Origin: a virus
Length of the DNA stretch: 23,007 nucleotides
Strand: one strand, 5' to 3'
IMG/VR virus record: IMGVR_UViG_3300014501_001048
Span: 1 to 23,007 of that record
Shown: positions 11,813 to 14,059 of the stretch, piece by piece
How the letters are laid out: each line of letters starts with the position of its first letter
Position numbering within the stretch: the stretch's first letter is position 1
Program-made: the position numbers and the translations under genes
The notes under the pieces: generated by a model
The model's database searches: none
Told to the model about the DNA's origin: nothing
What the model saw: only the letters and a program-made list of their open reading frames with translations

Positions 11813-11838
11813 ACACGGTGGGGTTGGGGGATACGAAA

Positions 11839-12243
11839 ATGCGCGTATTTATTGCGTTTTGCGTGGCCTGCTTGCTTGCAAACTGCGCCGCCTCAGGCGT
11901 GAAAGTCAGCGAGCAACAAGCGGAAGCGTTCAAGGTCGGGACGGCGACCTATTCGGAGGTGGTGGCCGCGCTCGGCGAGCCCACCTCTACATCCGTGGCC
12001 TCGAACGGCAGCCGAACGGCGGCGTACAATTATTCTTCGATGCGCTCGCAACCGCAGAACTTCATTCCGTATATCGGCCCGCTTGTCGCCGGATACGATA
12101 ACCAATCGAGCGCGGTGACATTTACCTTTGACCAGCGTGGCGTTCTGACCGCCACCACGTCGAGTCAAAGCGGAATAGCAACGGGCGCCAATCTGGCCGC
12201 CGGCACCAATGCCGCCGCACGCCCCTATGAGGGCGTTCGGTAG
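11839..12243 (+). CDS. SmpA/OmlA-like lipoprotein (moron gene)
   Basis: This 134-residue protein starts at ATG 11839 with a short lipoprotein signal (MRVFIAFCVACLLANCAASG), the likely lipidated Cys being the one in LLANC near residue 16; Asn before the Cys is atypical. The mature part has TATYSEVVAALGEPTSTS followed by a YNYSS strand, the pattern of SmpA/BamE/OmlA-like small outer-membrane proteins. The frame is open further upstream, but that region covers the promoter and the divergent tape-measure start. It is on the plus strand, opposite all structural genes, so it is probably expressed from the lysogen. By analogy with phage lipoproteins such as T5 Llp it could block superinfection or alter the envelope; this is inference. 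It ends 12 bases from the converging chaperone gene. Confidence 0.7.
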   Translation: MRVFIAFCVACLLANCAASGVKVSEQQAEAFKVGTATYSEVVAALGEPTSTSVASNGSRTAAYNYSSMRSQPQNFIPYIGPLVAGYDNQSSAVTFTFDQRGVLTATTSSQSGIATGANLAAGTNAAARPYEGVR

Positions 12244-12928: not shown

Positions 12929-13042
12929 TTTCAACAGACAGGCGCCATATCCAACTTGCCTGTTGAAGTTATTGAAAAAACACAATAAGTACTATTTCAA
13001 CAGTGAGCCTCAAAAATCATAGGAACTGTTGAAATGATTGAA
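12929..13042 (+). repeat. Two-unit 66-bp-spaced repeat with inverted arms, overlapping the nucleotidyltransferase start
   Basis: TTTCAACAG occurs at 12929-12937 and 12995-13003, and its complement CTGTTGAA at 12960-12967 and 13026-13033. Each unit reads TTTCAACAG-N22-CTGTTGAAnTnATTGAA, and the two units are offset by exactly 66 bp. The second unit includes the AGGAA ribosome site in its loop and the ATG (13034) at the end of its stem. It could be a pair of operators, or an RNA hairpin controlling translation, or an old tandem duplication. The remainder of the 185-bp gap (12849-13033) shows nothing else recognisable. Confidence 0.65.
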
Positions 13043-14059
13043 TTTCAAGAGCTTAACAACGACCAGCGTCGCGAACTCGTTAACACTCAACAGAGGTACG
13101 CCGCATACCGGGAGGCTGAAGAGCGGGCAAAGGGGTACCGCGGTTCGATGACTTGGACACAGATTAAAGGGCGCGATTACTTGGTCCGGAGCCACTACGG
13201 CAAGTCTGGGATTCGGCGACAAACGTCTCTCGGTCTCCGCTCGAAGGAGACTGAGGCAATCAAGCTTGAATATGACCACGGCCGCTCAGAAGCCCAGGGC
13301 CGCCTGAAAAATCTAAAAACCGTGATCGCTAGACAATCAGCGATCAACCGCGCCATCGGATTGGGCCGCGTTCCGTTGATTGGAGCGAAGATTATCCGTG
13401 CCCTTGACCAAGCAGCAATGCTCGGCTCGGGCATCCGGGTGCTCGGCACAAATGCCATCTATGCATACGAGGCCGCCGCAGGTGTCCGCATCGATCCGGG
13501 CTTAACCAGCACCGAGGACATTGACTTATTGTTCGATGCGCGTGGCGGATTGACTTTCGCAGCGAACGAAAACGTATCGCCGCCGTCGTTGCTTCATTTG
13601 CTGCAAAAAATCGATCGCAGTTTCGAGCGTTCGACTCAAACGTTCCGAGCTGCGAATGGCGATGGGTATCTGGTCGATTTAATCAAGCCATTACGCAACC
13701 CGCCTTGGGTGGCCGAGAGCCAGCGGGTGGGCGTGGACGCCGACGACCTTTCGGCGGCCGAAATAGAAGGATTGGCCTGGCATGAAAGCGCACCGTCTTT
13801 CGAGGCGCTTGCCGTCGACGAAAAAGGCGAGCCATGTCGCATTGTCGCGACCGACCCGCGTGTCTGGGCCGCTCATAAACTGTGGCTTTCCAAACGCCAA
13901 GATCGCGAACCGCTTAGGCGCCGACGAGATGAAGCCCAAGCCCAGGCCATTGGCCATCTTGTCGCGAAGTATATGCCGCATCTGCCGTACGCCTCGGAGC
14001 AACTGAAAATGCTTCCGAAGACCGTGTTTGAGGAGGCTGCGTCCCTTTTCAGCCAATGA
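13034..14059 (+). CDS. GSU2403-family nucleotidyltransferase-fold protein (moron gene)
   Basis: This 341-residue protein has the hallmark of the GSU2403/NTP_transf_8 family: RVLGTNAIYAYEAAAGVRID at about residues 136-154, followed by STEDIDLLFDAR around 159-170, where the two Asp of DIDLL would bind metal. The N-terminal 100 residues are charged and helical, with a basic patch (SGIRRQTSLGLRS). The family is often found in accessory DNA; its substrate is unknown to me, though nucleotidyl transfer to a protein or RNA is plausible. It lies on the plus strand between major tail and chaperone genes, so it must use its own promoter and could be expressed in the lysogen. AGGAA eight bases before ATG 13034 decides the start. 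A role in phage defence or toxin-antitoxin function is speculative. Confidence 0.75.
   Translation: MIEFQELNNDQRRELVNTQQRYAAYREAEERAKGYRGSMTWTQIKGRDYLVRSHYGKSGIRRQTSLGLRSKETEAIKLEYDHGRSEAQGRLKNLKTVIARQSAINRAIGLGRVPLIGAKIIRALDQAAMLGSGIRVLGTNAIYAYEAAAGVRIDPGLTSTEDIDLLFDARGGLTFAANENVSPPSLLHLLQKIDRSFERSTQTFRAANGDGYLVDLIKPLRNPPWVAESQRVGVDADDLSAAEIEGLAWHESAPSFEALAVDEKGEPCRIVATDPRVWAAHKLWLSKRQDREPLRRRRDEAQAQAIGHLVAKYMPHLPYASEQLKMLPKTVFEEAASLFSQ

Follow-up and report, generated by a model that had tools for sequence, protein, structure and literature searches.

Two palindromes that lie directly in front of a phage-borne nucleotidyltransferase gene are, judging by comparison of that gene with its relatives, most likely an on/off switch, one that the N-terminal part of the encoded protein recognises. 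The gene is found in a 23,007-base IMG/VR virus record (IMGVR_UViG_3300014501_001048), analysed over its whole length and called the window here, in which it stands on the + strand among phage tail genes on the - strand. Taken as a whole, the explanation that we consider probable is a DNA operator of four half-sites, bound by the gene's own protein, probably via its N-terminal module, and serving negative autoregulation.

Sequence features

The palindromes have the form TTTCAACAG-N22-CTGTTGAA and occupy positions 12929-12967 and 12995-13033. The copies of TTTCAACAG lie at 12929-12937 and 12995-13003, and those of CTGTTGAA at 12960-12967 and 13026-13033, each with a gap of 22 nt to its own left arm. 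A preliminary description of this DNA had reported two such units offset by exactly 66 bp, with a ribosome site in the second loop and the start codon at the stem end, and the sequence bears this out exactly. The features referred to below are as follows.

12929..12937, unstranded: outer left half-site (OL), TTTCAACAG, from direct matches and the four-arm score
12960..12968, unstranded: inner left half-site (IL), CTGTTGAAG, overlapping the -35-like box
12963..12968, + strand: -35-like hexamer TTGAAG inside the IL arm, from comparison of relatives
12986..12991, + strand: -10-like hexamer TAAGTA just 5' of the IR arm, from comparison of relatives
12994..13004, unstranded: inner right half-site (IR), ATTTCAACAGT, around the expected transcription start
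13021..13025, + strand: ribosome-binding-like site AGGAA in the loop of the second palindrome, from direct reading
13025..13035, unstranded: outer right half-site (OR), ACTGTTGAAAT, whose 3' end overlaps the ATG
13034..14059, + strand: gene for a 341-aa PF12281 (NTP_transf_8) nucleotidyltransferase, its ATG beginning at the end of the second palindrome
13034..13372, + strand: N-terminal module, residues 1-113, predicted as a helix, three antiparallel strands and a long helix; proposed operator reader
13385..13996, + strand: nucleotidyltransferase domain, residues 118-321, with G138-T139-N140, D162 and D215 invariant and D164 nearly so

The pattern TTTCAACAG-N15-30-CTGTTGAA gave three strand matches in the window, all of them within the two palindromes, and none in 100 dinucleotide shuffles; the four-arm layout scored 51 of 54, against a shuffle maximum of 38. 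The extension 'nTnATTGAA', to which the preliminary description had also assigned conservation, is indeed exact in both copies. In the second copy, however, it encodes the codons M-I-E, and it is missing from that place in many relatives (for example Bradyrhizobium, with ...GTGTTGAAACC-ATG-GAT), so we place it outside the conserved unit.

A + strand gene inserted among - strand phage genes might suggest that recombination or transposition brought it into the phage and that the repeats are the ends of the moved segment. This is hardly credible, as the layout is tied to the promoter and start codon in many unrelated contexts, and a partner repeat downstream is missing, the window having the word pair at no other place. 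A second + strand gene lies in the tail cluster (11838-12243); it encodes a small lipoprotein-like protein (MRVFIAFCVACLLANCAAS...) and is possibly another phage cargo gene.

The encoded protein belongs to PF12281 (GSU2403 family), with 190.5 bits against a curated cut-off of 26.3 and a Pfam E-value of 5.2e-56, and its AlphaFold model has a pLDDT of 88. A sequence search of the PDB found no relative, a fold search with the full-length model found only weak nucleotidyltransferase neighbours (5uvd and Rv1045, 7c46; E 0.004-0.017), and the PADLOC defence protein models gave no match up to E 1. In the open-access literature searched we found no functional description of the GSU2403/PF12281 family; PF12281 was not mentioned, and GSU2403 appeared solely as an entry in a table of expression data.

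Conservation of the layout among PF12281 relatives

The first comparison set comprised 30 genome loci and 10 viral loci encoding relatives, with genomes sampled one per species. PF12281 relatives occur in bacteria, plasmids and phages, and the family is present in roughly 8-20% of sampled genomes (20/247, 53/398 and 59/297). No relatives of the window gene were found among GenBank phages, and ten were found in IMG/VR.

Nearly all of the 40 upstream regions carry the same layout, built from different arm words. Over the whole family, TTTCAACAG, TTTCCACAG, GTTCCAACAG, TTGCAACAG, TTTCTACGG, TTTTCCACT, GTTATACT and CTTGTTACC are among the words used by one clade or another. The first of these serves Bradyrhizobium and Microvirga, the second a sister group of phages, the third Devosia, the fifth Azospirillum and the sixth a Pseudolabrys group, while Mesorhizobium and Xanthobacter combine TTGCAACAG inner arms with ATCAACAG-like outer arms. 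A search that assumed no model, looking for sets of four 9-mers that match one another and scoring them against dinucleotide shuffles, recovered the clade arm words blindly. Distant Pseudomonadota PF12281 genes have the same design with the words GTTATACT, GTTATAAG, GTTCAAC, GTGTGCAG, CTTGTTACC and TTACCCTA.

A four-arm score of at least 45 was reached by 26 of 36 close members and 26 of 56 distant members, against 6 of 762 control windows taken from the same loci (<1%). At least one palindrome lies between -80 and +20 in 107 of 125 members versus 9.3% of controls, or, at a score of at least 10, in 58% versus 1.9%; about 14% of family members lack a palindrome at the threshold used. As a universal feature, the four-fold layout was rejected, a middle group and most Desulfobacterota having a single palindrome. 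The last arm stands at no fixed distance from the start codon, the palindrome ends ranging between about 29 bp upstream and the interior of the coding sequence.

Within one locus all arm copies agree and change together, even though the words differ greatly between clades. This concerted change, along with the recurrence of the layout in relatives, strongly supports selection on the arms rather than plain duplication, as had been supposed. The search for the motif upstream of related nucleotidyltransferase genes, proposed as a check that homologues lacking it would contradict, likewise came out favourably, provided that the motif is taken as a layout and not as a fixed word.

Several loci depart from the common geometry. 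The inner arms lie 63-66 bp apart, not 31-37, in L026, L027, L029 and L030, and close to the middle of the extra stretch lies another inverted repeat, most pronounced in L030 (TTCAATATCTTATGGAA-TTCCATAAGATATTGAA) and weaker in L026 and L029. In L014-L018, L020, L022 and L023 the inner arms (TTGCAACAG) agree better with each other than do the outer arms (A/T-TCAACAG), so that the symmetries are nested around the promoter; the best match in the distant subfamily is instead between the two arms of one palindrome. L093 has, about 150 bp 5' of the gene, a third palindrome, CTTACCCCACAAA...TTTGTGGGGTA, with the word of its relative L068 and not its own TTACCCTACA. The operator of L002 is a hybrid, with three TTTCCACA-type arms and a last arm CTGTTGAA, as if caught in the middle of a change of word.

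The encoded protein as the probable reader

The arm word tracks the protein tree (r about 0.7). Eleven host genomes were scanned with two word patterns for the word pair; in ten of them matches were found only at this gene, once or twice each, and the eleventh gave no exact match. No neighbour or partner gene is conserved over 126 loci, beyond the tail-gene context common to eleven phage-type loci. Sites confined, in the genomes scanned, to the protein's own gene, the lack of a conserved neighbour and a word that follows the protein tree make the encoded protein the simplest reader.

A regulator encoded by the host could also read such sites, as any repressor might, and the family does span many hosts. 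Genera of one bacterial order nevertheless use different words, the word follows the tree of the enzyme, the scanned genomes have sites at this gene only, and the operator accompanies the gene into phages and plasmids where no neighbour is conserved; we judge a host regulator improbable. The comparative data strongly support the paired operators for autoregulation that were among the meanings first proposed, and it is from two things only, the coevolution of word and protein and the exclusivity of the sites, that we infer autorepression by DNA binding.

Under this autoregulatory reading, one half-site, repeated four times, would make up the operator, which surrounds the promoter of its own gene and continues downstream of it. 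The encoded protein would bind the repeats, probably through its helix/three-strand/helix module; about three helical turns separate the half-sites, which a dimer or tetramer would bridge, and the bound protein would block RNA polymerase and so keep its own nucleotidyltransferase at a low level.

Promoter position and readings as RNA

Relatives in the clade of the window have TTGAAA, TTGGAA or TTGCAA at the -35-like place and, after a spacer of 17 bp, a -10-like TA. A strict consensus sigma-70 scan of the window found no promoter, and the likely location, placed by comparison of relatives only, would put the transcription start inside the second palindrome; in the TTTCCACAG clade the promoter in use may be a shifted one. 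In the window's clade the IL arm also serves as the -35-like box, which would place the first palindrome upstream of the likely transcript.

The palindromes could instead act as RNA hairpins, either as a cis-acting leader or in a translational switch by which ribosome site and start codon are concealed. The second one does fold around AGGAA with the ATG at its stem end (-11.1 kcal/mol, z -1.06), and the 136-nt leader has a z of -3.4. The first, however, bears the -35-like box in the window's clade and as RNA prefers a different stem. Arm mismatches show no excess of G-U over A-C (16/13 and 16/12), the palindromes keep no constant place with respect to the start codon, and in some relatives (L025) the ribosome site falls outside the hairpin. 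A hairpin would also have no need of one word in all four arms, and Rfam gave no match. The promoter position, the absence of a G-U preference, the alternative RNA fold and the variable distance to the start codon favour recognition of double-stranded DNA, and we hold the RNA hairpin decidedly unlikely. Its form as a translational switch, raised in the preliminary description, is poorly supported in view of the variable start distance, the outlying ribosome site of L025, the first palindrome upstream of the likely transcript and the missing G-U excess.

The palindromes might also be substrates or antidotes of the enzyme, as DNA or RNA hairpins to which nucleotides are added or as an RNA antitoxin of type III kind. 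The nucleotidyltransferase fold is in keeping with this, and the Rv1045 toxin is among the best neighbours of solved fold (probability 0.63). There are usually one or two copies and no array, Rfam again offers nothing, no terminator-like site lies between the palindromes and the gene in the window, and the first palindrome is outside the likely transcript. The sites moreover stay beside a separate module gene in loci without a detectable enzyme, as described below. We regard these roles as very unlikely, and the earlier suggestion that the palindromes are target sites modified by the encoded enzyme found no support.

The N-terminal module and its separate form

The model of the N-terminal module has a pLDDT of 93.8, and the module carries a net charge of +10 versus -5 for the rest of the protein. 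Its three-strand part is common to the distant subfamily (profile match E 2.6e-23). A search of the module against PDB folds returned nothing at E<0.001 and matched no known DNA-binding fold.

Desulfobacterota served as an independent phylum set. Most full-length members there again have a palindrome near the start. Six short enzymes of this phylum are without the module; a small gene of its own encodes it immediately upstream, and in those six split loci the palindromes precede the small module gene and not the enzyme gene. A search for separate modules gave a small set of 14 loci, six of them already among the short-enzyme loci, and a palindrome stands at the module start in 12 of the 14. 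The nucleotidyltransferase is truncated in L178, L180, L182 and L184 and undetectable in L176 and L181, with the module gene intact in all six; the palindromes before the module gene persist in each of these except L178, which has none. Split loci thus keep the palindromes before the module gene even when the enzyme has decayed or is undetectable, and therefore the operator goes with the module. A module kept beside a decayed enzyme would be expected if the enzyme alone is costly, which is consistent with toxicity.

By profile comparison the separate module matches the N-terminus of fused proteins in the distant subfamily (E 4.9e-5); its profile gave no significant match to the window's own subfamily (E 0.4), and the small module of the split form has no significant Pfam family. 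The general design would be a cis-linked regulator and nucleotidyltransferase, fused in most members, including that of the window, and encoded by two genes in some Desulfobacterota. The module is the likely recognition part, assigned by association and not by residue covariation; the partial correlation with the arm word is 0.13 for the module and 0.33 for the enzyme domain, and the module shows no enrichment for differences fixed at the A-to-C arm switch (6 versus 7). Binding by the module, repression and a toxin-like role of the enzyme are all things that we infer.

Comparison with known systems

To our knowledge, the nearest known layout is the Rv2827c-Rv2826c promoter. In this nucleotidyltransferase operon of M. 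tuberculosis, four inverted-repeat sites in two pairs extend from -1 to -131; the sites are of 23 bp and graded affinity, and their reader is a separate antitoxin (PMC7319586). Four sites in two pairs straddling the promoter are common to both, whereas here the half-sites are of about 9-10 bp and of one word, with 22-nt gaps and a single gene.

In the AbiE type IV toxin-antitoxin system, whose operon is widespread and also found on mobile elements, AbiEi binds two inverted repeats on the abiE promoter in autorepression (PMC3985639). The likeness lies in a nucleotidyltransferase under a promoter overlapped by inverted repeats, the promoter of the window being placed by comparing relatives only. 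AbiEi, however, is a separate protein encoded upstream (COG5340) and AbiEii is a DUF1814 protein, whereas the enzyme here is of PF12281, with the regulator module fused in most members. Pfam gives only PF12281 for the window protein and no DUF1814/AbiEii domain, and a separate AbiEi-type regulator gene is neither present in the window nor conserved over the 126 loci. The module of the split form differs from AbiEi, and searches short of a profile-versus-profile comparison found no relatedness. The window locus would work like the AbiE and Rv2827c designs but is a member of neither, having another enzyme family and no separate AbiEi-type regulator.

The MenT nucleotidyltransferase toxins, checked by a cis-encoded partner in MenA-MenT pairs (PMC10435456, PMC11375011), are of the same broad superfamily but of another protein family and with other antitoxins. 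Type III toxin-antitoxin systems have a transcribed tandem array and a terminator before the toxin; the window has instead two palindromes with the likely promoter between them. A search of the open-access literature found no description of the operator or of the split form of the PF12281 family.

Conclusions

What looked like one odd palindrome becomes a family-wide rule for an uncharacterised enzyme family. We tentatively suggest that PF12281 proteins may be a widespread and unrecognised one-gene system resembling type IV toxin-antitoxin pairs, with a DNA-binding module of new fold joined to a nucleotidyltransferase effector, and in which a fast-diversifying operator word would insulate or cross-regulate host, plasmid and phage copies. 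The window (12929-13033) and the Bradyrhizobium genes L003-L007 use the same arm word; a phage copy could therefore cross-regulate a resident one, and the Devosia and TTTCCACAG copies should be insulated. The analysis points to the region of the protein probably responsible for reading DNA. It also yields dozens of naturally occurring pairs, each of a protein with its recognition word, from which protein-DNA recognition could be learned for a fold with no significant solved match. The family can now be tested as self-regulated, perhaps toxin-antitoxin-like, units.
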